Below are positions 1 through 48,882 of a DNA stretch of 51,857 nucleotides, one piece after another. Location: IMG/VR virus record IMGVR_UViG_3300047557_001228, positions 1 to 51,857 of that record. The stretch is one strand, 5' to 3'. Position 1 is the first letter of the stretch, and the number at the start of each line of letters is the position of its first letter. The DNA is from a virus. The notes below the pieces were generated by a model, which was not told the origin of the DNA, did no database searches, and saw nothing but the letters and a program-made list of their open reading frames with translations. A program made the translations under genes and the position numbers.

Positions 1-324
1 AAGTCTCCTGATCTCAGCCCTGCTGATAAAGAGATGGCTCATCAACAATTGAAAGAGTTATATGAATTAGAGGTTCGTGACAGAGAGTCTGCACGTAACC
101 GTGAGGTAGAGGTGGCCAAGACCGGTAAGTTTGATTTTATGTTCAATCTTACGGGGTTCATTGGATTGGGAGTTTTTGTTTTCATTGTTTATGTCATTGT
201 CTATCTCGAAGTACCAAAAGAGAATAAGGAGTTATTTATACATCTGATAGGAATAGCAGAGGGTGTTGTGCTTTCAATCTTTGGATATTATTTCGGTAGT
301 GCAGTGAAGAAAAATGTTCAATAA
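1..324 (+). CDS. Holin-like membrane protein, 5'-truncated by window edge
   Basis: The frame is open from base 1, so the gene probably starts upstream; the first ATG inside the window is at 34. The visible 107 residues begin with a charged, helical, Glu/Arg-rich segment (ELEVRDRESARNREVEVAKT) followed by two hydrophobic spans, one ending in IVYVIVYLEV and one containing GVVLSIFGYYFG. The pattern of a charged ...RDRDSARxRE... linker before the last membrane helices is typical of three-helix phage/GTA-type holins, so a role in pore formation at lysis is likely. No endolysin is in the window; it may lie just outside. The stop overlaps the next start by one base (TAATG), so translation with the fibre gene is coupled. 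Function is inferred from motif style and membrane topology. Confidence 0.55.
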   Translation, partial: KSPDLSPADKEMAHQQLKELYELEVRDRESARNREVEVAKTGKFDFMFNLTGFIGLGVFVFIVYVIVYLEVPKENKELFIHLIGIAEGVVLSIFGYYFGSAVKKNVQ

Positions 325-27000: not shown

Positions 27001-29095
27001 TGACACAGAGTTTTTTAACTGTTTCTGTTTTGGTAACGGAGCAGAAAGCTACAAGATTCGTGACTCTATTGTTGGTAAGACATTTAACTTGGGCAACAGG
27101 GTAACGTCTGTTTCTGCTCAAGACTATAAGCGTGCTCATAGATTTGCCGACATTACGTATAGTGGTGTATATAACTTTGAGTCTAACGTAAATAAATTAA
27201 ACGAATTTAATCTTGGCTTGCTTAACTATAAGTATTTGGAAGTTTCATTTGGCCCTATCTATAAAATGGATGGCCGTGAGACTGATGTGCTTGTACTCCA
27301 AGAAGATAAGATTTCCTATGTATTAGCCGGTAAAAACTTACTCTCAGACGCAGCAGCCGGAGGAGCCATCACTTCAGTTCCTGAAGTATTAGGTACGCAG
27401 ATTGCTCGTGTCGAGAAGTATGGTATCAGCTTTAACCCTGAGAGCTACGTACAATGGGGATACTTTAGATACTTTACTGATGTAAAACGTGGAGCTGTAT
27501 TACAATTAATAGGTAACTCGTATAGCTCTGATCAGCTTAAGGTTATTTCTGAAAGCGGAATGAGGACATGGTTTAGGGATGAGTTTATTCAAAATTTTGG
27601 GACTCAAAAGCTTGGAGGCTTTGATCCTTATATGAATGAATATGTTCTTAGTGTCAACAACGATGAGCTTCCTAAGCCGCAAACTTGTTTAGCATGCGGT
27701 GTTGGTCAAACATTTTCAATAGCAGCAGGTGATAGTATCAGCTACTGCGTAAACTATGGTAATGCAGTTGGTGAAAGTATTATTACATATTCTGTTGATG
27801 AATCATCTACAGCAGAGTTTGAAGTAGAAGCGACATATAATGGTGTTCCTGTAAGTACAGGTGTTGTTACCGAATCAGGTACCTTATCTGTAGACAAGAA
27901 CTCTAATTCAGAAAACCAAGTAGATATAGTTATTACTGCAACTGATAATGTTGTTATAAGTGTAAATGTAGGCTGTGCATCTGTTGAAGAAATTACCATT
28001 GTAGGTATTACATTATCAAGTAATCCTGATGCAGGTAAGTTTATTCATAATGAATATAGATACACTGATGGAGATTACATATCACCGCTTCAGTCTTCAT
28101 TAATTACGCTTGGAAGTTCTGCACAAAGTCCTGTTGTATCATCTTACACTCAAGTAACAGGTGCTGCAGGTACGGGAGGATTTCCACCTGCAGGAGCAAT
28201 AATGGAGTTAATATCCAACAAGTTTGGATTCGACAACTTTATATTTGATATTACTACTGATAAATTTAGATTTTTAAGATCTAATACTTTATACCCCAAT
28301 ACACAGCAAGGCATTGCTAATTTAATTGCAGCATCTACCATTGTTGCACCAACAGGATCAGGAGGTTATTACTCAGGGACATTTACTGTACCAAGTGTAG
28401 GTGAATACTTGTACTTGATATGGGATTATAGAAATTCCCTTCCTCTCGAGCTTTGTTATTCAGATATAGACTTACAAAACTCTTGTTGTGGGTGCGCTCC
28501 TCCTACTGCAGAGCTTTGTTTTGCAAGTACAAATGCCTCTGATTCATGCTGCGATTGTCCGGCAGAGGGAGTTTATTATTTGAACGGGCCAAGTTTTGCA
28601 TTAGCAACAGGACTATTTACTGACGAAGCATTGACTGTTCCTGCTGTTAATGGATATTATTCACAGAATGGACTTGTTCGTCAGCAGGTGTCAGGAGTAT
28701 TGCAGGCACAGCAGTCTTGTCCCGGGTGTGGATTTGAAGCAGTCTTATGTTATGATGTTGACACAGCTTATGAATCATGCTGCAATTGTAATGCACCTGT
28801 ACAACCATTATGCTATTCAAATGATAGCGCTTTAGGTGCTTGCTGCGAATGTGTGACTCCCGGAAATTTCTACTTGGATGGGCCTACTTTTTCTACCGCA
28901 ACAGCAGTTTACTCAAACTCAACATTGACTACTCTTGCTTCTGATGGATATTACGAAGATAATGGAACTGTGAGACAACAAGTATCAGGTGTTTTACAGG
29001 CACCATCTTCATGTCCGGGATGCGGAATTGAGGTATCTCTTTGTTATTCAAATACAACAGCATTTGATGCTTGTTGCGGATGCTTATTACTTTAA
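24089..29095 (+). CDS. Tail nozzle/muzzle-like protein with Cys-rich C-terminal modules, 1668 aa
   Basis: The opening ITRNFVAGRMNKVVDERLIP followed by NGEYIDALNIRMGS is typical of the large nozzle ('muzzle' or stabilisation) proteins of Bacteroidota podoviruses, comparable in role to T7 gp12 and P22 gp10. A long beta-propeller-like body follows. The last ~220 residues are different: five copies of L-C-(Y/F)-x8-C-C-x-C (about nt 28450, 28512, 28744, 28807, 29038) alternate with two ~55-aa modules (YLxGPxF...LT...GYY...VRQQVSGVLQA..SCPGCG). Those look like an add-on, with a third module copy starting the next gene. The Cys clusters could bind metal or form disulfides. Confidence 0.78.
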   Translation: MANITRNFVAGRMNKVVDERLIPNGEYIDALNIRMGSTEMSEIGVVENTKGNVRLTTLKYIDGTPLSSSAKCIGAIDDSANETVYWFVHDSNFPVGATGKLDMIVSFNVLTNILTYHLVSIDDVGGVNTTLNFNDQYLITGVDLIDNLIFFTDNLNPPRFFNVQKNYADPIANIDQFSAESILVIKKPPVASPGVQTITVGQQENFLQTRFICFAYRYRYEDGEYSATSQWSAPAFRPNPFEFSINSFLNEGMVNINNTAIVTYNTGGPLVVGIDLLFKEAQSNVIRVIEKLSKADLGLADNTDYTYTFNNSKIFTVLQPSELLRLYDNVPLIAQAQTIMGNRLMYGNYVEGYNMLDENGNPIKLEYTTQLVSELVDSTSIPDSTASGIYLFGGSQTIADSVLNIDLTGVDLVEGASITAEVRLNHAQFGGDTPPPTELSENINLTFSFVLPTNYASVYEMATSVSFQSVVGTVANIQTVANSCNGTTFTDQFNCALPNNLDALIKFQSGISAASQPVAIITSPASQSIGLQFPVMRYVNNTTTPTFNVYEYYEITFSEATYQKVDSPRSLHSNRGYEIGIVYMDDFGRSSTALVSPNNTVQVPCSASDTKNSIQVTIPATQKVPFWATRYKFVIKPDEENYETIYSSIFFNDPLSNNAYFLLEGENARKVEQGDRLIVKADTSGATNSCVYATVLEKESKQAGFIEIPSELDPSVNIPVPSGVYMKINPNSFAVVQDELAVIAPGTVQVDQDDAGEYPILNYQMNRFDTASNQWEDYSVPAGSRVKISLKFQRLGPGGGGGACERRIYTLEKTLVASANYDNMKEWWDGDNVEQILNDGTQEVSDNQCDIENEYIASLASGPNDISTNLCINYYRFYRYPTVSGDPNSNKLILIVSGTVRCSGVLSKEKRRSSITANIEVFRAETTLIFETEPSDALPDVFFENNLSLPIVNGYHTGNIQNQTASQPAIIDTEFFNCFCFGNGAESYKIRDSIVGKTFNLGNRVTSVSAQDYKRAHRFADITYSGVYNFESNVNKLNEFNLGLLNYKYLEVSFGPIYKMDGRETDVLVLQEDKISYVLAGKNLLSDAAAGGAITSVPEVLGTQIARVEKYGISFNPESYVQWGYFRYFTDVKRGAVLQLIGNSYSSDQLKVISESGMRTWFRDEFIQNFGTQKLGGFDPYMNEYVLSVNNDELPKPQTCLACGVGQTFSIAAGDSISYCVNYGNAVGESIITYSVDESSTAEFEVEATYNGVPVSTGVVTESGTLSVDKNSNSENQVDIVITATDNVVISVNVGCASVEEITIVGITLSSNPDAGKFIHNEYRYTDGDYISPLQSSLITLGSSAQSPVVSSYTQVTGAAGTGGFPPAGAIMELISNKFGFDNFIFDITTDKFRFLRSNTLYPNTQQGIANLIAASTIVAPTGSGGYYSGTFTVPSVGEYLYLIWDYRNSLPLELCYSDIDLQNSCCGCAPPTAELCFASTNASDSCCDCPAEGVYYLNGPSFALATGLFTDEALTVPAVNGYYSQNGLVRQQVSGVLQAQQSCPGCGFEAVLCYDVDTAYESCCNCNAPVQPLCYSNDSALGACCECVTPGNFYLDGPTFSTATAVYSNSTLTTLASDGYYEDNGTVRQQVSGVLQAPSSCPGCGIEVSLCYSNTTAFDACCGCLLL
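28450..29082 (+). repeat. Cys-cluster repeats and YY-LDGP...SCPGCG modules
   Basis: Five C-(Y/F)-x8-CC-x-C clusters with identical spacing, interleaved with two long modules at about 28569-28735 and 28860-29028. A further copy of the long module is at about 29116-29285 in the next gene. Read directly from the translation. Confidence 0.8.
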
Positions 29096-33700: not shown

Positions 33701-36700
33701 ATGGACGAGAAATATTTAGAACAGTTATATGGTTGGATAATATCAAAAGATCCTACGTATAAAAACGATATACCACTTCCTACTTTCAAGCAGAAGATGG
33801 CAGATCCTGCTTATGTTGGTAAGATGCACGGTTGGATTTCAAGTCTTGACCCTACTTTCAAGGATGATATGTCCATTCAGAAATTCAATGAGCGTATCGG
33901 ATTTGGTAAAAAAAAAGTCGATACGGGATCGTTTGGGGGAGATGGTTTATTGGAGCAACCAAAGACTGCAGTTGCTGAATCAACGGCTATTAAGCCACGC
34001 ATGATAGCTCCTCTTACGGAGGAAGATAAGAAGGAAGAGGAAGGACAAAGTTGGTTATCTAATACAGTATCTGCTATTGACAGAGGATTTTATAAAAATC
34101 TTATTGGTAGTCCTATAAAAGGATTGGGTACTCTTATTGAAAAGGGTACTGAGTACATGACTTTTGGGAAGGTAAAGAAAGGCCCTATCAGTGATGCCTT
34201 AATTAAGTTTGGTGACTACTTCAATAATACCATAGATGAACTTGCTCCTCAAGATGAGGATTTCAAAAACAGTTTAACAGATCAGTTTGCTCAAGCATTT
34301 GGGCAGGTAGCATCATTGGCTTTGACAGCAGGTGGTACTGCTGCTGTTGGTAAAGGTGCTTCAGTTTTAGGCGCAGCCGGTAAAGGAGCAGCAGCAACTA
34401 AGGCAGCTACAACCGCTATAGCAGCACAAGCTGCACCAAAAGCTGTTACAGTTGGTACTGCGGCAAAAGGACTTGTATCAGAATTGGCAAGCCCGGTTGC
34501 GGTTAGCGCAGGTCTTACTATGGGACAAGCTGAATTTGATAGAGCAAGGCAGATGGGAGCAACAGATGATGAAGCCTTTGAAGCTTTTTGGAAGAACGCT
34601 GCCGTTGGATCTATCTTAGAGAAGATACCTGTCATGCAATTTATGAAGCGATTTAACAAAGCTTCTGCAGGGGGATTAACAAACTATATTAAAACTAAAG
34701 GAGTAGCAGGCGTAACGGGTGGATTAGAGGAAATGACTACTGAAGTATTACAGCAAATTTATGCGAATAAAACTGCTCAAGATATTTACAATACGAACCA
34801 AGATATATTTGAAGGAGTAGGCTCTTCAGGTGGTATTGGATTTGGCGTAGGTTTCTTGCTGAATGCAATGGGTGCTAATGCTAAGTTGTTAAGAAAGCAA
34901 GGCAGAAATGAAGAAGCTAAGGTTGTAGAAGACCAAATAAAAGAACTTGAGACGCAGGCAGAAAGAGGAGGCCCTTCTTCTTATAGTTTCAATGGCATAA
35001 AGATACAGCCAATACAAACTGAGACAGGTATTGAAGAGCCTCGTGTGGTAATCAGTAATATGATTGACAACATGAGTGCGGCTGATTTATCAAAGGCTAA
35101 TATTGAAATCGTCAACGATCCTGAACTTAAGATAAAACTTCAAGATAAGATTGTAACCTCTGCTATTAAAGAACAGGTTAGAGAATCTAATCCTAATCTT
35201 ACAGAGGAGCAGTTGGATGAGATTACAAATCTTGAAAAGGAACTTAGAAAGTTTGAGGGTAATACAACACAGTCCGGTAAAGACAGGGCTGCTCAGATTC
35301 GTTCACAAATTAAAACCATACAAGAAAATGCCGTTCAAAAGCAAGCAGCAGGTGAAGTACCTGTACAGCCAACACCCGGAGTTAGCGGAGAAGTGGCGCA
35401 AGGAAAACCCCAACCAAAACCTGAAGTCGTTACCGCAGAAGGTGTCAAAGAAGAAGTCACTCCTGAAGTCAAGAAAGAAAAAGTAAATGTACTTTTAAAC
35501 TTTGAAGGAAGCCCGATTGAGAACAAAGAACAAGTAGACGCTATCAATGCAGTTATTGAGGAGCGTATTCCTAAGTTAGAAAAAGTAGAGGATTCTCAAA
35601 AGATGCTGCAGGATTTAGGTATCAAGGTATCTGATAATGCTCAAGAGTCATTCAATAAATTTGTACAAGATAAGATTGAAGGAAAGACGCAGGAGACATT
35701 CGCTGAGTGGGTTCAGAAGTCGGAAGCTCCTGTAGAAATACCAAAGGTTACACAAGTTAAAGTAGCTCCATTCTTTAATACAACTATTGCTAATAAAGAA
35801 GAAGCCGCAACACTTAGGAAGTCACCTGAATATCAGAACTACGTTCAGTCTTTGCTTGGTATTGCCAAGCAGATTGGTGTTCCTGCTAAAGTTGTTGAGA
35901 CTATTGGTGGTTACGAGAATCAAAAAGGTGAGAGGATTGTAGAAATATCAAACTCAGTAGACCTTGAAAATGCTACAATGGAACAGGCTGAGGAGTTTGC
36001 TGCACTTGCTGCAACACTTGCTCCTGAAGTACAAGAGGCAAGTATAGCTGCTCAGTATACAGATCAAGGCGCAAAGAACCACAACGCTAACGAATACTCT
36101 GTAAAGGTATCAGATGTTGATGGAGCAATTGAAGCACTCAAGAAAGTTGGTATAACTGATTTCAGTATTGATGAGAACACAGGGGAGGTTTCATTCATAG
36201 ATGTATTAGACTTTACTGATCCTGAACTACAACAGAACATAGGTAATTTTTTATTTGAATTAAATGAAAAAGGAATAAAATATGAACAACAAGTCTACAA
36301 ACCCCTCGACTCGAGAAGAATTGGCAAGGGAACTCGGAAGAAAGTTCTTGGAAGAATTAAAAGCGCAAGGCCCCGACCTGTCGAAGGTGGGCAAGACATT
36401 CTATCGACCCTCGAAGAAGCCATCAAAAGAGATGCAGAGTTTCAAGGAGTCGAAGTCGAAAAGTACTTTGAGCCAAGCGCAGGAAACAGACTCTTCAATG
36501 AGCCCATACCGGAAGTTTCAGAAATTGCGGATCGATATTTCCAACGAATTCTCAAATCTCAAAGACCAAAATACTTCGGGTCAAGAAGCATAGACGAGGC
36601 AAGAGCAAAGCGTATATCAGATGCGTTTGATGCTATGGAGAACGCTCCAACCAATCCTGAAGTTAAAGAGGCGTACGAAGCTCTCGCAAAAGAAACGCTT

Positions 36701-39700
36701 GAGCAATATAAGGATATGCTTGATGCAGGATATAAAGTTGAAATAAATAATAATGAGCCTTATAATAATTCTCAGGAGATGATAGATGACCTGAGAAAGA
36801 ATAAGCGCATGAAGATATTTTCTACTGAGTCAGGATTCGGGGATACTAAAATTACTGATGAGCAGAGAGAACAGAATCCACTGTTGCGTGACTCAGGGTT
36901 TAAAGACATTAACGGGAAGCCATTGCTCGTCAATGATGTATTCCGTGCTATCCACGACTTCTTTGGTCACGCTGAACTTGGTAACTCATTTGGCCCTAAA
37001 GGAGAAGAGAACGCATGGAATGTGCATGCAAGGATGTTCTCACCTACTGCCCGTAAGGCTATGACCACAGAGACCCGTGGTCAGAACTCATTTGTAAATT
37101 TCTCAGGTGTTAATGATAAGGTTAATGAACTTAGAGAGCAAGCTCGTGCTCTTCGTGAAGAAGGATTATATTCTCAAGCAAGAAGAATAGTAGAAAAAAT
37201 TTACGAACAAATATCATTTGCTGATCAGAAGGTTGGTCTTTTGCCTGAAGAGTTTTATCAGATTGATGAAACAGACATTGGCGATGTAGAGCGTCAGCCA
37301 AGTGTTGAAACAATGAAGGAGATCAGTCAGGAATTAACCGAAGAAGATCTACCGGGCTACGACAGGATGATGGGTGAGATTGATGGCATCATCGAGAAAT
37401 CACAGAACAGAGGTGTTCCGTTCAATAAGATATTGGACAATGCTATGGAGTACATGAAGCAGTCCAAAGCTTATGAGAATGCAACAGACGTACAGCGTGA
37501 AGCTCTTGTTCGTGACCTGAGAAGCAGGTTCAAAAAAGCAGAAAGACGTGCACCATCAGCCAAGAAAGTATTAGGCCAAAAGAAAACTGAGGTTACAGTT
37601 GACGAAATGGCCGCACTCAAAGATCAGATTAAACTCGAAGCTCGTGCAGCTCGTGAGGCTAAGGCTGACCTGAATACAAAACGCAAGCGTCTTGCTGATG
37701 TGATTCGCAAGATGGCAACAGAAGGTAAGATCAGCGTTAACAGAGTAGCAGCACTTGTCAATAAGATAGGTAAGCTCAATCTCGATAGTCAAACTGCAGT
37801 CGATAAATTTATTGACTATGCAGGTAAACTGTTTGCTGATGCTGAGTATGCGAACAAATTAAGTGTAGCAAACTCTACAAGAAAGCAACTACGCTCCCTT
37901 TCAAAGAATAAAGATAAGGCCGCTAATCTCCGTGACCTATCTAAGCAATTCGTTGAGATAGATCCATCAATGGTTGAAGATATTGATGAGTACAACAGAA
38001 TCGCTTCTCTTATAAAAGAATCTATCAAGGGTTCTACTACCCGTGGTACTGATGTCAAGTTTGCCAACATGGTGAAAGAGGCTGATGCCATGGAGTATAT
38101 CAACGCTACCATGGAAGAGCAGAGAAAGAAAATGTTCGACATGAAGGTGGCTGAGGTTCAAGAACTACTTGGTGTTGACGCTTCAGACTTGACATACGAT
38201 CAGCTTATTGAAATGCTTGAGACTGACAAGCCAATGACAAAGGACAACGAGAAGCTCGTTCGTTCTGCCATCAATAAAGCTTTCGGTATCTACTCATCAT
38301 TGATAAATGAATCAATGAAGACAGGTAAGGATCCATTCACCGGAGAAGATGTTGAGTATACTTCTAATCAGAAACGTGTGATAAAGGAATTTATGAACAT
38401 GGATTTGAATTTGCTCAAACCAAAGCAGGCACTCGAGGCGGTTGATGCACTGATGAACTTCTTTCAAAATCAATCTGTTGCAAAAATGGAATCTGTATTT
38501 GCTAAGTATAAAGGTGAATACGAGATGAACAGAATGAATAATAAAGGAGTTAGGGGTAGAGATATTAGAAAATATTGGTCTAAGTCTTTGGGAAGATTAC
38601 TTGTTGAACAAACAAATAACTTGGCTATTGTATTTGAGCGTGAGTTTGGAGGATTCAATGCAGGTGGTAATATGATGGATGCAATGGGTGTTACTGATGC
38701 TATTAATGGTAAATCGTCAGCGCAAACTGAATCTAATGATGTAGTTGATCAATATGTTGATAAGCTTTATAAAACAAAACCAAACGAACAGGCTTTTAAC
38801 ACGGCAGAAAATGACATTGAACGTGGGCTGCTTGCTTTTATGCAAAGAAATGTTATAGGCACCGAAGCAGAGATGAAAGAAGAGTTTGAGAGAAGAAAGA
38901 ATCTTATTCTTAAAGTAGAACCTGATGGTACTCGTACAGGATCTATACCTGAACTTGAAAAAGGTAATGAACGAGAAAGAGAGAAGGCTGAAATATACCA
39001 AAAAGTATATGATAAAATTTTAAAAGACTCTAATAACATTGATGATGTTAAGTCTAAAGCTGCTAAAGAAAATGTAGAAGCCGTACAGTTTTGGAAAGAG
39101 AAGTGGGATAGTAAATACGATCAACTATCGGATGTAGCACTTGGAGTTTATAATAAGGTTTTAGGTAAAGATATTAACTATACTCCTGATTTTTATAAAA
39201 AGCTAAGCTCTGATACCGGAAAGGTAGAACTTGCTAATGAGGACATGGCGTTCTTATTCAACAGTGGTAACGCTCCTTTGTATAAAAAAGAAACAGGCGT
39301 ATTGATGACAGCTACTCGCCCTGAATCTTTACCGACAGATGACAATGGAAACGTAAATAGATACATAGATCTTTCTTTCGATAGCAATAATGCTAACGCA
39401 TATTACGATGCTCTTGTTGATATATATACTGCTGCTCCTATTAGACAAATGGATGCTGCTCTTAATTCTGATGCGTTTAAAAAGATTGTATCAAATGTAG
39501 ATGACAGAAGATTAATTGAGAATAGGATCAAATTGTTTGTGAATAATACTCGCAAGAAGAATCCATTCTCAAATGACGAGTTCTCAAAATCTGTTAAGAA
39601 TCTTAATCGCTTAACTAATATTGCTGTTGGTCAGGCGTTAGGCGGTCTTACTCAACCAATTAAGCAAACTATTCCAATTGCACTCAATACTCTTGTAAAT

Positions 39701-41335
39701 GCAGGTGATTTAGATCTTGCTTCTCTTACAGATGAAGCGAAACAAAGCTTTATAAATAAATCAGGGTATGCAATTGCAAATAGAGGTGCTGAATCACAAG
39801 CTCAGATTCAATCATTAAATAAATTGCTTGATGAAGTTGCTAAATCAAAAGGAGAAAAAGCTTTAAAGGGTATAGAAAATCTAAACAAGAAATGGCTTAA
39901 GTACACATTGGTTAAATTTGATTTGGCTATTGCTCGTGCATCTTGGATGACGTACTATCAACAAAATCTTAAGAAGCAAGGAATTGATCCAAGTAGTATT
40001 GATTGGAATACGCACGAGTTAAATAAAGAAGCTGCTAATTATGCGCAGCGTCAGGTTGACCGTCAACAGAACGTGTCTGATACTGATCTTGCAGGTGCAT
40101 TGCTATCAAGTAAAGATGCTAAGACGCAGTTGTTGGTAAAAGTAATATTGCCTTTTGCATCGTTCAGGATGAGCCAATCTGCAAGAATAGGATCTGACAT
40201 TGCAACGCTTAGCAATAAGACAGCCACTGTAGAAGATAAAAAAATAGCTGCGAGATCTCTTGCAGGAGCTTCAGTAGAGACGCTTGCGTTTAGATTATTA
40301 TCTACAGGAGTATTATTAGCTACAGCTCAGGTAGTTAAAGGAGTTATGGGCAGGGAAGATGATGAGGAAAAGGATCAGAAGAAAAAAGATGCCATCATAA
40401 AAGGTCAGCTCACAAGTACTGTAGCTGATGTATTTTCTCCAACTCCTATACTTGATAAGATCGTTCAGCTTGGTGTATCAAACATATTAGAAACAACTCA
40501 GGAAGCGCTTGATATACCAAAAGAAGATAGGCTTTCTATATACTCAGGCAATAAGCAAGACATGTTCCAAAGCTTAGGTTTACTTGGTATCACAGGCGCT
40601 CGTGCATACCAACTTTATGAGATGGCCAAGCTTTCTTCAGGTGGTAATTTTGAAGATGACTACGGCCGAAAGAAGTATCTATCTGAACAGGATCGTGAAG
40701 CTCTTGGCGCTTTAATTCCTGTAGCCATACTTTCAAACATTGGACTTGCTCCTACTGAGGTGAATAGCGTAGTTCGTGGTGCGCTTTCAGATGCAAAAAG
40801 ATCAGCTTCTACAAAAGAAGGTGGCAAGACTCGTGAGGATATTGAAGCAGAACAGCAGAAAGAAGAAGGGGCTGCGGAAAGAAAAGAGAAAACGCAAGAG
40901 TCAAGAGAACAAAAGGTTGAAGCTCTTAAAGAAATGAAAGACCTTGAGATTGATCCTGAAAAGAAACGAATCATCCAAGATCTGATTGACGAGAACAGAA
41001 TGACTGACGAGGAACGCAAGGCAACAAGAGAAGAGCGATCAAAAAGAAATGCTGAAAGAAAGGCGTTCGAGGAAGAACTACTCGGAGGCTACGACAATAA
41101 GAGCGAACTGAAGCGATACAACCCAAGCCTATACGAAGAAAACTTTGGCAGGAACAGTGAGTACTATGAAAAGTATGGAGCAGAAGATGAAGTAGAAAGA
41201 GAACTAAGTAAGACTATCAGAAGAAACGAAGATATAGAGATGGGATATACGCCAAATAAAAGAGGAGGCAAGTATAGTGGACGTACAAAGATCAGGTCTA
41301 CGTACAGTAGAAGATACAGTGGCGATAGGTACTAA
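33701..41335 (+). CDS. Giant polyvalent-like ejection protein, 2544 aa
   Basis: Starts with two copies of an (L/M)(Y/H)GW(I)xSxDPT(Y/F)KxD motif (residues about 7-55). A Gly/Ala-rich, membrane-active-looking stretch follows (about 205-260, then GGLEEMTTEVLQQIY). A conserved block at about 960-1135 includes RAKRISDAFDAMENAP, VFRAIHDFFGHAELGNSFGP (F1081, H1085, H1090) and a TETRGQNSFVNF segment (E1124), known to me from very large phage proteins of unnamed activity. Long coiled coils follow, then a C-terminal QALGGLTQPIKQTIPIAL to FASFRMSQSARIG region and a basic Arg/Tyr tail. It is probably injected with the DNA, like T7 gp16. No RNA-polymerase DxDGD motif is seen. Confidence 0.7.
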   Translation: MDEKYLEQLYGWIISKDPTYKNDIPLPTFKQKMADPAYVGKMHGWISSLDPTFKDDMSIQKFNERIGFGKKKVDTGSFGGDGLLEQPKTAVAESTAIKPRMIAPLTEEDKKEEEGQSWLSNTVSAIDRGFYKNLIGSPIKGLGTLIEKGTEYMTFGKVKKGPISDALIKFGDYFNNTIDELAPQDEDFKNSLTDQFAQAFGQVASLALTAGGTAAVGKGASVLGAAGKGAAATKAATTAIAAQAAPKAVTVGTAAKGLVSELASPVAVSAGLTMGQAEFDRARQMGATDDEAFEAFWKNAAVGSILEKIPVMQFMKRFNKASAGGLTNYIKTKGVAGVTGGLEEMTTEVLQQIYANKTAQDIYNTNQDIFEGVGSSGGIGFGVGFLLNAMGANAKLLRKQGRNEEAKVVEDQIKELETQAERGGPSSYSFNGIKIQPIQTETGIEEPRVVISNMIDNMSAADLSKANIEIVNDPELKIKLQDKIVTSAIKEQVRESNPNLTEEQLDEITNLEKELRKFEGNTTQSGKDRAAQIRSQIKTIQENAVQKQAAGEVPVQPTPGVSGEVAQGKPQPKPEVVTAEGVKEEVTPEVKKEKVNVLLNFEGSPIENKEQVDAINAVIEERIPKLEKVEDSQKMLQDLGIKVSDNAQESFNKFVQDKIEGKTQETFAEWVQKSEAPVEIPKVTQVKVAPFFNTTIANKEEAATLRKSPEYQNYVQSLLGIAKQIGVPAKVVETIGGYENQKGERIVEISNSVDLENATMEQAEEFAALAATLAPEVQEASIAAQYTDQGAKNHNANEYSVKVSDVDGAIEALKKVGITDFSIDENTGEVSFIDVLDFTDPELQQNIGNFLFELNEKGIKYEQQVYKPLDSRRIGKGTRKKVLGRIKSARPRPVEGGQDILSTLEEAIKRDAEFQGVEVEKYFEPSAGNRLFNEPIPEVSEIADRYFQRILKSQRPKYFGSRSIDEARAKRISDAFDAMENAPTNPEVKEAYEALAKETLEQYKDMLDAGYKVEINNNEPYNNSQEMIDDLRKNKRMKIFSTESGFGDTKITDEQREQNPLLRDSGFKDINGKPLLVNDVFRAIHDFFGHAELGNSFGPKGEENAWNVHARMFSPTARKAMTTETRGQNSFVNFSGVNDKVNELREQARALREEGLYSQARRIVEKIYEQISFADQKVGLLPEEFYQIDETDIGDVERQPSVETMKEISQELTEEDLPGYDRMMGEIDGIIEKSQNRGVPFNKILDNAMEYMKQSKAYENATDVQREALVRDLRSRFKKAERRAPSAKKVLGQKKTEVTVDEMAALKDQIKLEARAAREAKADLNTKRKRLADVIRKMATEGKISVNRVAALVNKIGKLNLDSQTAVDKFIDYAGKLFADAEYANKLSVANSTRKQLRSLSKNKDKAANLRDLSKQFVEIDPSMVEDIDEYNRIASLIKESIKGSTTRGTDVKFANMVKEADAMEYINATMEEQRKKMFDMKVAEVQELLGVDASDLTYDQLIEMLETDKPMTKDNEKLVRSAINKAFGIYSSLINESMKTGKDPFTGEDVEYTSNQKRVIKEFMNMDLNLLKPKQALEAVDALMNFFQNQSVAKMESVFAKYKGEYEMNRMNNKGVRGRDIRKYWSKSLGRLLVEQTNNLAIVFEREFGGFNAGGNMMDAMGVTDAINGKSSAQTESNDVVDQYVDKLYKTKPNEQAFNTAENDIERGLLAFMQRNVIGTEAEMKEEFERRKNLILKVEPDGTRTGSIPELEKGNEREREKAEIYQKVYDKILKDSNNIDDVKSKAAKENVEAVQFWKEKWDSKYDQLSDVALGVYNKVLGKDINYTPDFYKKLSSDTGKVELANEDMAFLFNSGNAPLYKKETGVLMTATRPESLPTDDNGNVNRYIDLSFDSNNANAYYDALVDIYTAAPIRQMDAALNSDAFKKIVSNVDDRRLIENRIKLFVNNTRKKNPFSNDEFSKSVKNLNRLTNIAVGQALGGLTQPIKQTIPIALNTLVNAGDLDLASLTDEAKQSFINKSGYAIANRGAESQAQIQSLNKLLDEVAKSKGEKALKGIENLNKKWLKYTLVKFDLAIARASWMTYYQQNLKKQGIDPSSIDWNTHELNKEAANYAQRQVDRQQNVSDTDLAGALLSSKDAKTQLLVKVILPFASFRMSQSARIGSDIATLSNKTATVEDKKIAARSLAGASVETLAFRLLSTGVLLATAQVVKGVMGREDDEEKDQKKKDAIIKGQLTSTVADVFSPTPILDKIVQLGVSNILETTQEALDIPKEDRLSIYSGNKQDMFQSLGLLGITGARAYQLYEMAKLSSGGNFEDDYGRKKYLSEQDREALGALIPVAILSNIGLAPTEVNSVVRGALSDAKRSASTKEGGKTREDIEAEQQKEEGAAERKEKTQESREQKVEALKEMKDLEIDPEKKRIIQDLIDENRMTDEERKATREERSKRNAERKAFEEELLGGYDNKSELKRYNPSLYEENFGRNSEYYEKYGAEDEVERELSKTIRRNEDIEMGYTPNKRGGKYSGRTKIRSTYSRRYSGDRY
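36282..36593 (+). other. Candidate overprinted ORF inside the giant gene, 103 aa
   Basis: An ATG-started frame, shifted relative to the giant gene, encodes a basic, helical, Ser/Lys-rich protein (STREELARELGRKFLEELKA; RPSKKPSKEMQSFKESKSKS). Its ATG follows AAGGAATAAAAT, the same kind of leader used by real genes here. Between about 36290 and 36590 both frames use codons rare in the rest of the giant gene (TCG, CCC, CGA, CTC). The giant frame also looks conserved at the 3' end of this stretch. This could be a genuine overlapping gene or an inserted segment with foreign composition. Confidence 0.3.
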
Positions 41336-41754: not shown

Positions 41755-41923
41755 TAAGTTTTATTGTTGCTCTGAGATCTCTCATCAGAGACTTGATATG
41801 TTCGGTAGCGGAGTCGTATTCCCTGTCCACCAATTTTTCGTAGATGGATGTAACGTTTAAGTGAAAGCCTTCTGTCATAAATGATATGCGAAAGGCCCGG
41901 TCTTTTTCTTCCTGCTCAGTCAT
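41735..41923 (-). CDS. Small acidic protein of unknown function, 62 aa
   Basis: Not recognised. Helical and acidic (TSIYEKLVDREYDSATEHIK; ending KLIEDDDF). It overlaps the DnaA-like gene upstream by 8 nt and the nuclease gene downstream by 20 nt, so it is translationally coupled to both. Could be a partner or regulator of either; nothing more can be said. Confidence 0.6.
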   Translation of the reverse strand: MTEQEEKDRAFRISFMTEGFHLNVTSIYEKLVDREYDSATEHIKSLMRDLRATIKLIEDDDF

Positions 41924-42419
41924 CGAACATCTTTCTTATTTTTCTTTCTATAATAAGCTCATGCCCTGATGGAGTACAGTCTTCTATCAACTTAAATATC
42001 TTTGCAAACCTTGCCATGTCGGATACCTTGATGGTATCCAATTCATCCTTCAGTAAAAGGTTCTCGGCTTTCAATGTTTCAAGTTGACTGCGAAGCTTTA
42101 ATACTTCATGCTTTGGGTTAGATAAATTTACGGGTTGTTTCTGAGAATCAATAAGTTCCTTGCAACGAAGATATGTTTTGAGTACATTAACATCTGTGTC
42201 TATAAGGTTCCTCATGGTACGCTCATAGTGAATGACAGTAGTATGGTCTTTCTTTAAGTACTCTCCAATCTGTTTAAGTGAGTGGCTAAGCTCACGCATG
42301 AGCAAGCCGCAAAGCATACGGGCCTCAACAACCCTACGCTTTCTATTTTTTGTGAAGATGTCTACACCCATAACCATCTCCACAGATTTCCTTACAAGTT
42401 CAAAGTCATTCATCTCCAT
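41916..42419 (-). CDS. DnaA domain IV-like DNA-binding protein (with coiled coil), 167 aa
   Basis: Residues about 25-75 match the DnaA DNA-binding domain: basic loop KNRKRRVVEARML, RELSHSLKQIGEYL as the second helix, and KKDHTTVIHYERTM, equivalent to the DnaA signature (R-D-H-S/T-T-V-x-x-A/Y). The AAA+ ATPase part of bacterial DnaA is absent. Residues about 100-130 form a coiled coil (VLKLRSQLETLKAENLLLKD), probably for dimerisation. It may bind DnaA-box-like sites in phage or host DNA to start replication or regulate transcription. A second, shorter DnaA-like protein is encoded at 48580-48882. Confidence 0.7.
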   Translation of the reverse strand: MEMNDFELVRKSVEMVMGVDIFTKNRKRRVVEARMLCGLLMRELSHSLKQIGEYLKKDHTTVIHYERTMRNLIDTDVNVLKTYLRCKELIDSQKQPVNLSNPKHEVLKLRSQLETLKAENLLLKDELDTIKVSDMARFAKIFKLIEDCTPSGHELIIERKIRKMFDD

Positions 42420-42836: not shown

Positions 42837-44323
42837 AAGTAATCCTTTTCAAAATGTTTTAATGTATAGTCCTTCTTCTTGGTAACCGCTTTGTAGATGT
42901 CATGCTCAATACCACCTTTGCTGAATACCCAATACACGTGATTGAACGCACGCTCTTTGGTAGTCATCCTATCCTTACTCTGCCAATAACTCGTAGCACT
43001 GAAGTCAATATTATAATACACCAAGTAGTCTGCCTTCTTAAGGCTAATACCTTCCCTTCCGGAAACAATTTGCAAAGCTATGTGCTTATCCCCATTTTCA
43101 AAAGTGGCGAGGTCAGTGCAAAGCTCATCCTTAAACACTGACTGCAATGCACTCAACTCCTCCTTGAACTTATAGAAGATACCGATCTTACATCCGGCAA
43201 AGTATTCTTTAATAAACTCAGCCTTACTCGTATCAAGCACCATGCTGTTGCCACTCTCAAACTTGATGGTACCACTGCATAGCTGATGCACTTTCATCAT
43301 TAACTTAACCGGAGTGTCGGCAAGGATAACTTCGTTCTTTCCTTCCACCACCAAGTCCCTCTTGAGTTTCTTAATCAATTCCAAAGTACTTGGCTTCATC
43401 TCCACCTCAAGAATCTCCTCAGTAACTTGGGTTACAAACCCTGCATCCTGCTGAGAATAGTTGATGGTATATGGCTTCATGGCTTCGACAATACTGTCGA
43501 GCCCTTTACTGTAATCATTTACATACAGACCATTGATCTTCTTCTTAGTTATCTTCACGTAGTCGTCAGCAAACCGATAGAAGTTTTTGTACGCTTGAAA
43601 TGGATTGCCGAGTATTCCATACACCTGATGGTACATCTGCGAATAACTCTCAGGGGTTGGCGTTCCACTCAGTAGAATTACGGATGGCCTACACTTATCA
43701 ATCAGATCCTTAACCATGATTGCTCTCTCGCTTGGCTTGGCAAAAGCCCCCAAGCTATGAGCTTCATCAAGGATGATCAAGTCCCACATCTCATCATCCA
43801 TCACCGTGTGCAGACTCTCGTAGTTAATGACTGTCATCTTATAGCTTGGGTTAAGCATAGCATAATCTTCTTCAATACTTCCGATGGCTTTCTTCTTGGT
43901 TACAAACAATACATGTTCAAACATCAAAGCCTCAGCTATCCCCAAACTCGTAAGCGTCTTTCCTGTTCTCACCTCCATTGCGAGGTACAGGAACTCATGT
44001 TCCTTTAGGATCTTTGACCCTAAAGAGATTATCTCTTTTTGGTATGGCCTAAATTCCACTTGACATCCTCCTTTTTCATGTAGTTCTTTGTAATAGTCCC
44101 GGCTGCGCTGCAGTCGTGGAAGAATCTCCGGAGCATCCTTATACTTGTACACGTAGGTTACCTCAATCTTTGCGCCTCTGCCTGTCTTTATCTCTTTCAT
44201 CTGTCCCATCACCCGGCAAAGAAGATCGCAATACCTCCACATACTGTAGTCAGAATATCCCGGAGTCCTCTCAACTATCCGCATCCTTTTCTTTTTTACG
44301 GTGAATGATGATCCATCTACCAT
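42833..44323 (-). CDS. SNF2-type superfamily 2 helicase, 496 aa
   Basis: Full set of SF2/SNF2 motifs: RPYQKEII (Q-motif-like, 92-99), Walker A MEVRTGKT (116-123), DEAH box LIILDEAH (182-189), motif III LLSGTPT (217-223), motif V SGREGISL (421-428) and motif VI QSKDRM (448-453). The ~85-residue N-terminal region is not recognised. Such phage SNF2 proteins are ATP-driven dsDNA translocases used in replication, recombination or remodelling; the adjacent VRR-NUC gene strengthens that. The ATG at 44323 overlaps the primase-helicase gene by 53 nt; a second ATG at 44284 would overlap by 14 nt and is a credible alternative. Confidence 0.85.
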   Translation of the reverse strand: MVDGSSFTVKKKRMRIVERTPGYSDYSMWRYCDLLCRVMGQMKEIKTGRGAKIEVTYVYKYKDAPEILPRLQRSRDYYKELHEKGGCQVEFRPYQKEIISLGSKILKEHEFLYLAMEVRTGKTLTSLGIAEALMFEHVLFVTKKKAIGSIEEDYAMLNPSYKMTVINYESLHTVMDDEMWDLIILDEAHSLGAFAKPSERAIMVKDLIDKCRPSVILLSGTPTPESYSQMYHQVYGILGNPFQAYKNFYRFADDYVKITKKKINGLYVNDYSKGLDSIVEAMKPYTINYSQQDAGFVTQVTEEILEVEMKPSTLELIKKLKRDLVVEGKNEVILADTPVKLMMKVHQLCSGTIKFESGNSMVLDTSKAEFIKEYFAGCKIGIFYKFKEELSALQSVFKDELCTDLATFENGDKHIALQIVSGREGISLKKADYLVYYNIDFSATSYWQSKDRMTTKERAFNHVYWVFSKGGIEHDIYKAVTKKKDYTLKHFEKDYL

Positions 44324-46679
44324 TCAGATCACGCCCCTCCTCCGGTATTACTCCTTCCTTGAATAGTCCGTATGCAACGAGCCACTTATAGAACTTGGTT
44401 CGGCTGATGGTCATCTTTGCCTTCGGCCCGTAGTCAGGGTACTCACTGATGAAGTCATGGTATAGGTCGTTCTTATACAGCCTTACCCCTACCTCAAGTG
44501 CTGTATTCTTTGGCTGTCCCTCCACAAGACCGCACCATTCAATGAAGTCGTGAGCAGTTTCTGCAGATAGCTGACGGATCTTAAGGTTCACAAACTTACT
44601 CTTGACAAGTCCTGTTTTTAAGTAAGACTTAAGACAACCGATCATGTAGTTGTCAAACTCACACCAATCATCATCGTTCCAATCCCCGAACATCAGCTTA
44701 CCAAACTCATCCAAAGGCGTGTACGCTTTTGAATAATATTGGTGCAACTCAAGCTCCCATTTTCTGCGAGCAAATGAATTACCTGATCCTTTGATAGCGT
44801 AGTTGGTAGTGATGGCGATCTTAGGACTCTTGCTGAAAGGTATCTTGATAGCGTCCTTGTTTTTCTTCTCAAGTGTCAGACCTTCAGTGACTACACTGAA
44901 GAGTCGCTCGAAATCAAAGTGCTTCTTAACGTCATCGAACACAAGGATCTGTGTATCTGCTGACACCAACTGATAAGCGAAGCTTCTCTCAAAGGTGAAG
45001 CTCTTACCGTCAATGGTTACTACCTTCTTCATCTTGGATAAGGCATTCATAAAGAGTCCTTTCCCCGTTCCACCCTCCGGATTATCACTGATGACCTCGT
45101 CATTCAGGATCACGGCCGGGCAGAAACTTAAGTTCTTATACCCATGTAGCATAAAACCAATAGTACTTTCCATTGCATCGATCCGGCCCTGATCATCACC
45201 GCAAATGTTCCGTATGAACTTTTTATAATCGCATCTGTCGGTAACCTTACACATAACAAAGTTCCTGTCGATCACATGATCCTTCCATACATACCCACCA
45301 AGATCAATGTAGTCGATTGGCTTTATCTCATCCTTTGTAATCTGAACCGCACAGTTTTTGTAGTACAGATAGGATGCGTCCTTTGTATCCTCAATGAAGT
45401 AGATGTCAATCGTAGATAGCATGGATAGAAACTCCTCCTTGAAGAACCGGGTATTGTCAGCGAAGTAATTGTATACCCCTATATCGTCCAACTCAAGCAG
45501 GTGGTTTAGGACGTAATCCTTTATCTCCTTCTCTGAGGTATGGTCGATCAGGTTATTGGTAACCTTCACGAACACGTAGTTCTTCCCACCCTCCGGGCAG
45601 TACTTATAGAACCCACTATCCTCGAGGAACTGTTTAAACTGAATGTGTATTATCCTGATGACTCCCTTGTCGTTCTTTGTCCAAAAGGTCTGCTTGGCAT
45701 TCTCCTCCTCGACCTTTGCAAGAACCGCTTCGATCGTGTCTGTATCCAAGTTGGAGTCCTGCAGTTGGATACGTACCTCCTTTTTTGGCACACCACGTCT
45801 TAGCTTTGCTTTGATCTGATTCACCCTCTCCTCATCCTCGTAGTACTTGGTACCAAAGTTGGCCGTATTCTGATAGGCTGAGTCGATTGTTCTCTGTATC
45901 TCCTTTAAGGGGAAATCATTAGTAGCGAATTGGTTGAGGACGTAAGAGGCAAGGCTCTTGTTAATACCAAAGTCGTTGAATGCCATAGCAAGGATGAAGC
46001 AGTTCTGATTCCTCTGACCTTCGGTCATTGGGTACTTCTTCTGCCACCACTTGACAAGGATCTCTACTATCTTATTCTCATCCGTGATAGGGATGGTAGC
46101 CGTATCCCTAAGCTTACTTACCTCCTTGTACTCCGGCTCCTCGATGGTATCCCATACCGATGAGTTCTCGTTAACGTAGATTAGAGGGTCATAGGACTCG
46201 TAACACACCCGGCTAAGGTTCTTACTCGTCTTATCGAAATAAAGGGAATTAAAGTGCTTCTCAAGGCTATTAAAATAGTTCTGATGGTTCTCTGCATCTG
46301 CCGGTATCTTGACGAGTACCTTCAGGCCATTCCCTGAAGGGGAAATGAACACAGAATACACATACTTGTCCTTGCTTAAATTCTCCTTATCCTGCAGCAG
46401 TTCTTTTTGTTTGACGTAACCATCAAAGTCGAGGCAGATAAGTCCGCTATGCTCAACTATGGCCGTGTCAGCACGCTTGGTGAAGGTACCACTGAAGCAT
46501 ACGGCCGGGAGGTTCTTCTTAAGTTCGTTCCTCTCAGGCTTACGCTTCTCCTGTCTGATCTTTTTGACAAGCTCTTTGGTGGCACCTTGCCTAATCCTAT
46601 CAAGGATGACGGCCACGTCCCTGTAGAAGGGAGTGCTTGTTTCCTTGATGTTTTGGAAGATAGTTATTTGGTATGCCAT
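44271..46679 (-). CDS. Primase-helicase (BT4734/VirE-type N-terminus, SF3-like helicase), 802 aa
   Basis: Three parts. Residues about 50-180 have LICLDFDGY (D84, D86) and ISPSGNGLKVLVKIP, the BT4734-like/AEP-type primase core. Residues about 205-270 (LVKWWQKKYPMTEGQRN ... IQRTIDSAYQ) resemble a primase C-terminal helical domain. Residues about 495-650 are a viral SF3/D5-like helicase: Walker A NPEGGTGKG (533-541), Walker B ILVFDDV (578-584), sensor-type IAITTNYA (621-628) and R638/R639 as candidate arginine finger. It opens the duplex and makes primers. No phage DNA polymerase is in the window, so the host replisome is probably recruited. It starts downstream of the candidate origin at 46680-46850. 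Confidence 0.85.
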   Translation of the reverse strand: MAYQITIFQNIKETSTPFYRDVAVILDRIRQGATKELVKKIRQEKRKPERNELKKNLPAVCFSGTFTKRADTAIVEHSGLICLDFDGYVKQKELLQDKENLSKDKYVYSVFISPSGNGLKVLVKIPADAENHQNYFNSLEKHFNSLYFDKTSKNLSRVCYESYDPLIYVNENSSVWDTIEEPEYKEVSKLRDTATIPITDENKIVEILVKWWQKKYPMTEGQRNQNCFILAMAFNDFGINKSLASYVLNQFATNDFPLKEIQRTIDSAYQNTANFGTKYYEDEERVNQIKAKLRRGVPKKEVRIQLQDSNLDTDTIEAVLAKVEEENAKQTFWTKNDKGVIRIIHIQFKQFLEDSGFYKYCPEGGKNYVFVKVTNNLIDHTSEKEIKDYVLNHLLELDDIGVYNYFADNTRFFKEEFLSMLSTIDIYFIEDTKDASYLYYKNCAVQITKDEIKPIDYIDLGGYVWKDHVIDRNFVMCKVTDRCDYKKFIRNICGDDQGRIDAMESTIGFMLHGYKNLSFCPAVILNDEVISDNPEGGTGKGLFMNALSKMKKVVTIDGKSFTFERSFAYQLVSADTQILVFDDVKKHFDFERLFSVVTEGLTLEKKNKDAIKIPFSKSPKIAITTNYAIKGSGNSFARRKWELELHQYYSKAYTPLDEFGKLMFGDWNDDDWCEFDNYMIGCLKSYLKTGLVKSKFVNLKIRQLSAETAHDFIEWCGLVEGQPKNTALEVGVRLYKNDLYHDFISEYPDYGPKAKMTISRTKFYKWLVAYGLFKEGVIPEEGRDLNGRWIIIHRKKEKDADS

Positions 46680-46848
46680 AAATGTCAGCGTTATGTCGTT
46701 TTTGTGTCGTGTAACTTATTGATAATTAAAGCGATGTCAATTATGTCAATTTTTATTTTCACTTGTATTCTATAGAATAATAATAATATATAGAATATAT
46801 ATAGAGAGAAGGGAAAGGATAAAAACGACATACCGACATGAAAAAGAA
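46680..46848. promoter_or_regulatory. Candidate replication origin / operator region
   Basis: Non-coding. TGTC cores (mostly ATGTC[GA]) occur in direct orientation at 46683, 46694, 46705, 46735 and 46744. The first three are exactly 11 bp apart. Two inverted copies are at 46827-46830 and 46835-46838. TATGTCGTTTTT at 46692-46703 is the perfect inverse of 46821-46832. ATGTCAATT is repeated in tandem at 46734-46742 and 46743-46751. Between the arms lies a strongly AT-rich stretch (about 46748-46804) with the 14-bp palindrome TATTCTATAGAATA at 46766-46779. The layout of repeats, AT-rich unwinding element and palindrome between SSB and primase-helicase genes is that of an iteron-type origin. Promoter or operator use is also possible. 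Confidence 0.5.
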
Positions 46849-46849
46849 A

Positions 46850-46866
46850 GGGGGTAGAAACCCCCC
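46850..46866 (-). terminator. Intrinsic terminator of the SSB/recombination operon
   Basis: On the minus strand, GGGGGT-TTCT-ACCCCC (6-bp stem, tetraloop) followed by TTTCTTTTTC. About 25 nt after the SSB stop. It separates the recombination operon from the primase-helicase transcript. Confidence 0.75.
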
Positions 46867-46890
46867 ATTCGTATATGCTATGGGCTTCAA

Positions 46891-47183: not shown

Positions 47184-47915
47184 TTAATCTAAGGTTTCGT
47201 TAATAAAATGATTGTCTATATCTTCCGTAGCTTGAGGCCCGAAATACTTGTTATATACCTCCATTGCCCGTTCAACTTTGGCTTCGCCATTCTTGACGAA
47301 CTGTTCGCTCGGTCTAAATACCCCAAGCTGAGCCGTTTCCTTGTCAATGACATAGAAGTACAACGGCTTACCGAACAGTTGCTCATAGATGTAGCATTGA
47401 CTGTCGTAGTTGTAGGCTTTGGCCGACCACTTGAACTTGTTAATGTCGGAGGTAGTTTTTAAATCTATGATGTAGTCGTGGGTGATGATGTCCGCTTTAC
47501 CCTTCCACTCCATACCTTTGATCTTTCCAATGGCAGGTTCCTCGTATACGTTGCCTTCCCGGTAGATGTCATCGTAGAAAACTATATTGGCTTTTATTAC
47601 ACCAACAAGTTTATGGATTTCGTCCACCTCCTTAGTTAGTAAAGCGAACTCAAGTCCGTTATCAGCACAGAAGGTTTTATACTCTTTGGTATTACGGGAG
47701 CTTACGTCCACGCTTACCACCTTGTCAACCTTGTCCGGCTCAAGCAAAAGCTGATGAAATAATCTGCCTTCGGCAAAGCTTTTGTTGTCCTCACGTTCTT
47801 CTCTGAAGGACTTAGGGTTTGTAAGTAGGGGGCCAATGTCGGAGTTAGATAGGTAGTTTTTACCCACGCCTTTGTAGTACTCAAAGTCGTCCCGAAGTTT
47901 GTTGATTACTGACAT
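47184..47915 (-). CDS. RecE/Cas4-like PD-(D/E)xK exonuclease, 243 aa
   Basis: Motifs in order: GRLFHQLLLEP (H54), EEP (E125/E126), KGKADIITHDYIIDLKTT (D142, D151-x-K153) and YDSQCYIY (Q173, Y177). This is the layout of the phage RecE-like/DUF3799 nucleases, which resect double-strand ends to give ssDNA for annealing. The length is normal for the family's catalytic domain. It overlaps the DUF1071 annealing protein gene by 10 nt, forming an exonuclease-annealase pair. Confidence 0.82.
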   Translation of the reverse strand: MSVINKLRDDFEYYKGVGKNYLSNSDIGPLLTNPKSFREEREDNKSFAEGRLFHQLLLEPDKVDKVVSVDVSSRNTKEYKTFCADNGLEFALLTKEVDEIHKLVGVIKANIVFYDDIYREGNVYEEPAIGKIKGMEWKGKADIITHDYIIDLKTTSDINKFKWSAKAYNYDSQCYIYEQLFGKPLYFYVIDKETAQLGVFRPSEQFVKNGEAKVERAMEVYNKYFGPQATEDIDNHFINETLD

Positions 47916-48579: not shown

Positions 48580-48882
48580 TTAAATAAATACTGCCTTCTG
48601 AATATCCTTGACCACTTGAAGGTAGTCAGCATCCTCTTTGATTCTTTTCTCAACGGTGCTGATCCCATAAATAATGGTGGTATGTTGGGTGGTGTAACCA
48701 CTATCCAATATATATTTTTGGATATAACTGATCGTCATCGGACGCTTGAAGCATAGATAGTAAAGCAAGTAACGGGCATCAACGAGTTGCCTCTGCTTTG
48801 ACTTTGAGAAAAGGGATTCTTTGGTTATCCCAAAAAGATCACAAACCCTTTCCACATACTGATTAAAGATGTCAACTTTCAT
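48580..48882 (-). CDS. Short DnaA domain IV-like DNA-binding protein, 100 aa
   Basis: Residues about 20-80 follow the DnaA DNA-binding domain: LFSKSKQRQLVDARYLLYYL (basic loop and first helix), then MTISYIQKYILDSGYTTQHTTIIYGI, where QHTTIIYG replaces the DnaA DHTTVxxA signature. No ATPase domain. It is the first gene of the recombination operon, directly below a candidate Bacteroidota promoter flanked by DnaA-box-like sites, so it may regulate itself. It is paralogous in domain type to the protein at 41916-42419 but clearly diverged. Confidence 0.68.
   Translation of the reverse strand: MKVDIFNQYVERVCDLFGITKESLFSKSKQRQLVDARYLLYYLCFKRPMTISYIQKYILDSGYTTQHTTIIYGISTVEKRIKEDADYLQVVKDIQKAVFI

Follow-up and report, generated by a model that had tools for sequence, protein, structure and literature searches.

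Candidate paired iteron origins in a group of probable Bacteroidota phages, apparently recognised by the C-terminal tail of the phage primase-helicase

The spacer between the SSB-like gene and the primase-helicase gene of an IMG/VR viral contig (51,857 bp, analysed in full and called the window below) carries a module of ca 160 bp that we regard, with good confidence, as one of a pair of iteron origins. These origins would be opened and primed by an iteron-binding primase-helicase resembling P4 alpha, and their layout would resemble that of SPP1 oriL and oriR. Anatomy, conservation, duplication and the covariation of boxes with primase residues are observed; binding, bending, melting, priming, self-damping and the part played by copy II are inferred. 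An earlier note on this DNA had proposed an iteron-type origin at this place. This candidate is well supported by the conserved boxes, their phasing, the unwinding element and the IHF-like site, as well as by the position among replication genes and by a second full copy in the genome. The elements of the spacer are the following.

46680..46840, minus strand: whole module, candidate origin copy I, oriented toward the primase gene (profile match, conservation)
46683..46686, minus strand: box R5, GACA core, 4 bp before the primase start codon (sequence)
46694..46697, minus strand: box R4, GACA core, 11 bp from R5 (sequence)
46705..46708, minus strand: box R3, GACA core, 11 bp from R4 (sequence)
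46712..46724, minus strand: TATCAATAAGTTA, a perfect match to the IHF consensus WATCAANNNNTTR (sequence)
46735..46738, minus strand: box R2, GACA core, tandem pair (sequence)
46744..46747, minus strand: box R1, GACA core, 9 bp from R2 (sequence)
46752..46820, no strand: AT-rich candidate unwinding element (duplex stability)
46827..46830, plus strand: inverted box L1, GACA on the plus strand, TGTC in the primase reading direction (sequence)
46835..46838, plus strand: inverted box L2, 8 bp from L1 (sequence)
46844..46872, minus strand: GC-rich hairpin with a T-run after the SSB-like gene, likely terminator (sequence, position conserved in relatives)

Read toward the primase, the SSB-like gene is followed by the hairpin with its T-run, boxes L2 and L1, the AT-rich element, boxes R1 and R2, the 13-bp IHF-consensus element, boxes R3 to R5 and the primase-helicase start codon. 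All repeat coordinates given in the earlier note proved exact on re-check. The five direct TGTC start at 46683, 46694 and 46705 (exactly 11 bp apart), 46735 and 46744, and the two inverted GACA start at 46827 and 46835. The tandem ATGTCAATT occupies 46734-46742 and 46743-46751, the 12-bp arms at 46692-46703 and 46821-46832 are perfect reverse complements, and the 14-bp palindrome TATTCTATAGAATA lies at 46766-46779, inside the AT-rich element. The module sequence contains no TTATNCACA DnaA boxes. An RNA element was also considered and set aside: Rfam gave no match above gathering score, the top one being sraA with 21.7 bits against a cutoff of 56.

Over 50, 80 and 120 bp alike, no duplex in the 51.9 kb is less stable than the AT-rich stretch. 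The helix stability check suggested in the earlier note thus places the weakest duplex of the window between the two groups of boxes. The IHF consensus was taken from PMC10380432. The corresponding element is present in 45 of 97 relative modules in its strict form and in 73 of 97 in a near-strict form, where A or G is allowed at one place; a reversed control gave 0/97. It is also found at 15 of 21 second module copies.

The module profile matches the window at 46855-46678 with an E value of 2.7e-30. As the earlier note had expected, the repeats are conserved: nearly all relatives have the module upstream of the primase, with the same order of elements and with phased boxes. The commonest box spacings are 11 and 9 bp, and the left boxes are usually 8-9 bp apart. 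Two relatives, L257 and L291, have a primase without a recognisable module directly upstream; relocation of the module may be the reason. No such module precedes the more distant primases of Flavobacterium phage elemoF and Maribacter phage Panino. The 14-bp palindrome, which had been counted as an origin part, is common only to the nearest relatives (L002-L007), and we no longer consider it a functional element. The expected inflection of cumulative GC skew is absent at the module in the window. In relatives, a cumulative skew minimum is found 1-2 kb from the second copy, where it coincides with operon divergence. Skew was therefore discarded as an origin mark.

A pattern search of relative contigs, together with the module profile, revealed a second full module copy per genome, in the same orientation. 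Exactly two module matches were obtained in each of G001, G007, G010, G015 and G019 (60 kb scanned each). The complete circular genome MW202828.1 also has exactly two, at 42.6-42.8 and 53.5-53.7 kb, and in G004 the second copy was found in a separate end piece of the genome. The copies are 8.4-13.6 kb apart (24 of the 27 tabulated relatives with both tandem-box sites matching), and the tandem box pair is present at both. The second copy is located near the head of the late operon, beside groEL in some genomes. To its right, L248 (G030) has a tRNA-like sequence with an anticodon that, by eye, appears to be TCT. Complete or near-complete relatives are ca 60 kb in size. Hence, about 10 kb are probably missing from our contig, including the stretch where the second module copy would sit. 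In this phage, copy II would adjoin the late operon, past the end of the contig.

The module stands in opposite relation to the neighbouring gene at its two sites, with the same internal elements, so that the shared sequence is not readily explained as a promoter. This also bears on the idea that the tandem boxes serve as a -33/operator element of the primase-helicase gene, which did not hold up in the relatives. There, the first tandem box is often CGACA, not TTGACA. Of 97 primase genes, only 8 are preceded by a Bacteroidota -7 box (TAnnTTTG) in the sense direction, and one by a full -33/-7 arrangement. At the second copy, the leftward neighbour genes are provided with a TAnnTTTG box of their own that lies outside the module (20/21 loci).

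The genes around the module form a replication and recombination set (Pfam, PHROG), the recombination part comprising a Sak protein, an exonuclease and a VRR/Hjc-like nuclease. The genes and codons used below are listed here.

44271..46679, minus strand: primase-helicase (BT4734-like_N, PriCT_1, DUF5906), proposed initiator (Pfam, PHROG)
44274..44492, minus strand: codons 730-802, C-terminal winged helix, proposed iteron-reading domain (association, AlphaFold model)
44472-44474, minus strand: K736 codon
44316-44318, minus strand: R788 codon
46891..47181, minus strand: SSB-like gene, acidic tail DGDLPF (sequence)
47187-47915, minus strand: exonuclease gene
48580-48882, minus strand: DnaA-like protein A, domain IV only, Bac_DnaA_C (Pfam)
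41916-42419, minus strand: DnaA-like protein B, domain IV only, Bac_DnaA_C (Pfam)

The gene upstream of the module matched no Pfam or PHROG family and is called SSB-like, tentatively, solely for its acidic tail. The host is probably a member of the Bacteroidota, as judged from the promoter type and the gene families, and from one relative in a Cytophagales bin. Two relatives, L256 and L257 (JAAGZR01 contigs), were found in a metagenome bin labelled Aliivibrio; they are probably mis-binned phage contigs. The late region of the window also contains four giant plus-strand ORFs, at 324-6488, 6492-11312, 24089-29095 and 33701-41335 (2054, 1606, 1668 and 2544 aa). The last one has a weak PHROG match of unknown function.

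In several lineages, AACA replaces GACA in all or nearly all boxes, left ones included, and in both genome copies. Such a concerted change implies a single sequence-specific protein. Both copies are of the AACA type in the M736 relatives G031, G032, G033, G037 and G048. Copies do not switch together without exception: in MW202828.1 and L076 they are mixed or discordant, although K736 is retained in both and the tandem boxes of the second copy are GACA there. In L391, L395 and L396, GACA/AACA seems to give way to a third box type (AAGCA/AAACAC-like), and the primase C-terminus of this lineage is devoid of part of the usual loop.

A first scan of the neighbouring proteins identified seven otherwise conserved columns that consistently differ in the main AACA clade. 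Five of them correspond to primase residues 736, 746, 761, 764 and 788. Residues 736 and 788 are changed as well in a separate AACA lineage, L244. Three further collection scans enlarged the data to 191 distinct upstream regions, 170 of which had at least three scorable boxes. Box type, scored as GACA versus AACA only, was then compared with protein residues by generalised least-squares regression (1428 tests). The covariance was derived from a tree of primase residues 1-690, that is, from the same protein minus the tested domain.

K736 ranks first of the 1428 tests, with t = -8.79 (170 relatives, tree-corrected). It is followed by R788, Y764 and Y735, and all four residues belong to the C-terminal winged helix. 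The family-wise maximum |t| was 5.78 in 2000 null simulations and 5.70 with permuted residuals. Loci with K736 are 102 of the GACA type versus 5 of the AACA type. Those without it are 46 of the AACA type versus 5 of the GACA type, all five with T736. K736 changes at least seven times on the tree. The left boxes follow the box type (TGTT fraction 0.24 versus 0.75). For other proteins, the best |t| values were 5.02 (exonuclease), 4.05 (SSB-like), 3.67 (helicase), 3.63 (Sak) and 3.41 (DnaA-like protein A). Exonuclease residues 148, 98 and 103 are also associated with box type, with |t| up to 5.0.

Because the loss of one lysine in its C-terminal tail accompanies the change of the genome repeats, the phage's own primase-helicase appears to recognise the module boxes through this tail. 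A lysine lost together with a change from guanine to adenine is the pattern that a direct base contact would be expected to leave. In the AlphaFold model, residues 680-802 have a beta-helix-helix-beta-beta, or winged-helix, topology, with a mean pLDDT of 79 and values above 84 in most blocks of 730-790. The first helix begins with K736 and the last strand of the wing with R788, and T761 and Y764 are at the start of the second long helix. Pfam recognises a BT4734-like primase, PriCT_1 and DUF5906 in the rest of the protein. Primase, helicase and C-terminal winged helix are thus united in one polypeptide (Pfam, AlphaFold model). Profile and fold searches with the winged helix gave no significant match to a solved structure. 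Its fold match with the P4 origin-binding domain (1KA8) is weak and non-significant (E 1.4, TM 0.39/0.47).

The DnaA-like proteins had been put forward in the earlier note as candidates for binding the repeats, perhaps, as one might add, with host DnaA. Two separate domain-IV-only proteins, A and B, are conserved among these phages, both carry Bac_DnaA_C, and the model of protein A folds like DnaA domain IV (TM ca 0.78 to 3PVP and 1J1V). Moreover, the first four bases of TTATGTCG are like those of a DnaA box. However, box type tracks the primase-helicase C-terminus (|t| 8.8) and not protein A (3.4). An early correlation with protein A in eight AACA loci faded with more loci and tree correction, so that protein A was rejected as the reader. 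Protein B was included in the first, smaller scan only and was not prominent there. The lack of TTATNCACA boxes points in the same direction, and reading of the boxes by either protein is quite improbable. It is unlikely, though to a lesser degree, that the boxes are an operator or activator array instead of an origin. There, bound primase-helicase would control its own gene and the late operon and would couple late expression to replication. Such an array would agree with boxes that abut the primase start codon and with a second copy lying just upstream of the leftward promoter box described above. It would not account for an unwinding element, an IHF site and two-sided boxes that are kept at both copies despite the opposite gene relation, and dedicated regulation of transcription is an unlikely role for a primase-helicase.

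Two direct copies per genome and a recombination gene set in the phage might also evoke a partition, packaging or recombination site. We judge this very improbable: the apparent box reader is the primase-helicase, not a terminase or a partition protein, and an unwinding element with an IHF-like site fits an origin. Finally, the boxes might be short repeats that happen to cluster in this AT-rich spacer. Indeed, seven TGTC/GACA in 160 bp are matched by 48 of 200 dinucleotide shuffles of the window, and the clustering of the bare 4-mer is not beyond chance. TGTC is under-represented across the window. The extended 6-bp box ([AT]TGTC[GA] or its complement) clusters to the observed extent in one of 200 shuffles. 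Chance is refuted by the conservation in relatives, as well as by the second copy and the concerted box switching, and keeps virtually no probability.

We therefore return to a pair of iteron origins, of which the spacer would be copy I. The primase-helicase, encoded directly downstream, would bind the CGACATAAA-like iterons via its C-terminal winged helix, and a host protein of the IHF/HU type may bend the DNA at the WATCAANNNNTTR site between R1/R2 and R3-R5. With the inverted L boxes on the far side, the protein would occupy boxes on both sides of the AT-rich element, and the complex would melt it. The SF3-like helicase part would then load and unwind, and the primase part would lay the first primer. 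Since the boxes sit just upstream of the initiator's start codon, their binding would probably also damp its synthesis. Copy II, which the primase-helicase would bind too, may serve as a further initiation site or as a fork barrier provoking the switch to concatemer synthesis, as has been proposed for SPP1 oriR.

By analogy, the closest system in mechanism would be P4 alpha and the closest in layout SPP1 oriL/oriR. The P4 replicon has two iteron regions, ori1 and crr, in one genome. The C-terminal winged helix of P4 alpha binds origin repeats, and the same polypeptide then unwinds and primes (PMC4234260). P4 gp-alpha likewise combines primase, helicase and C-terminal winged helix in a single polypeptide. 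Its repeats differ in sequence, and its primase is of the bacterial Toprim type, in contrast to BT4734-like_N plus PriCT_1, of the archaeo-eukaryotic type, here. This other type of primase part places the present protein outside the P4 alpha family. In SPP1, oriL and oriR consist of direct repeats with an AT-rich unwinding element and are 12-13 kb apart, one by the replication genes and the other in a late-region spacer (PMC6316719, PMC3485210); oriR was proposed as a fork barrier switching replication to concatemer synthesis. Two origin-like copies ca 12 kb apart, one in the late region, are also found here (as deduced from relatives), with a similar recombination gene set. However, initiation in SPP1 relies on G38P as a separate initiator, on a helicase loader and on a helicase of the DnaB type, whereas the reader here seems to be the primase-helicase itself. 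In the pRN1 and BIP-1 proteins, an archaeo-eukaryotic primase (AEP) is joined to an SF3-type helicase and a C-terminal winged helix, and a stem-loop target without iterons was suggested for this group (PMC4234260). Our primase-helicase has the same combination in one polypeptide, but its target would be an iteron array. As in E. coli oriC and iteron plasmid origins, boxes, an IHF consensus and an AT-rich element occupy one short stretch; unlike in oriC, the module has no DnaA boxes of the TTATNCACA type and, by covariation, its reader is not DnaA-like protein A. In the open-access literature searched, no description of the module as an origin was found.

On balance, we favor the view that these probable Bacteroidota phages, a widespread group, carry an undescribed paired-origin replicon whose AEP-type primase-helicase is its own iteron-reading initiator. 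K736 would largely set the G or A of the boxes, and this choice would have been retuned several times, in both origins at once. A large, mostly uncultivated phage group thereby gains a defined candidate origin, with a likely initiator and a likely specificity residue named from sequence alone. The data suggest that AEP/SF3/winged-helix replication proteins can read iterons, and not stem-loops as proposed for their relatives. With their matched origins and initiators, the phages would also form a natural series in which to study how an initiator acquires a new target site, and a case on which ideas about the retention of two origins in some phages could be tested. If the proposal is true, origin choice in these phages follows a natural code of protein-DNA recognition that can be read.
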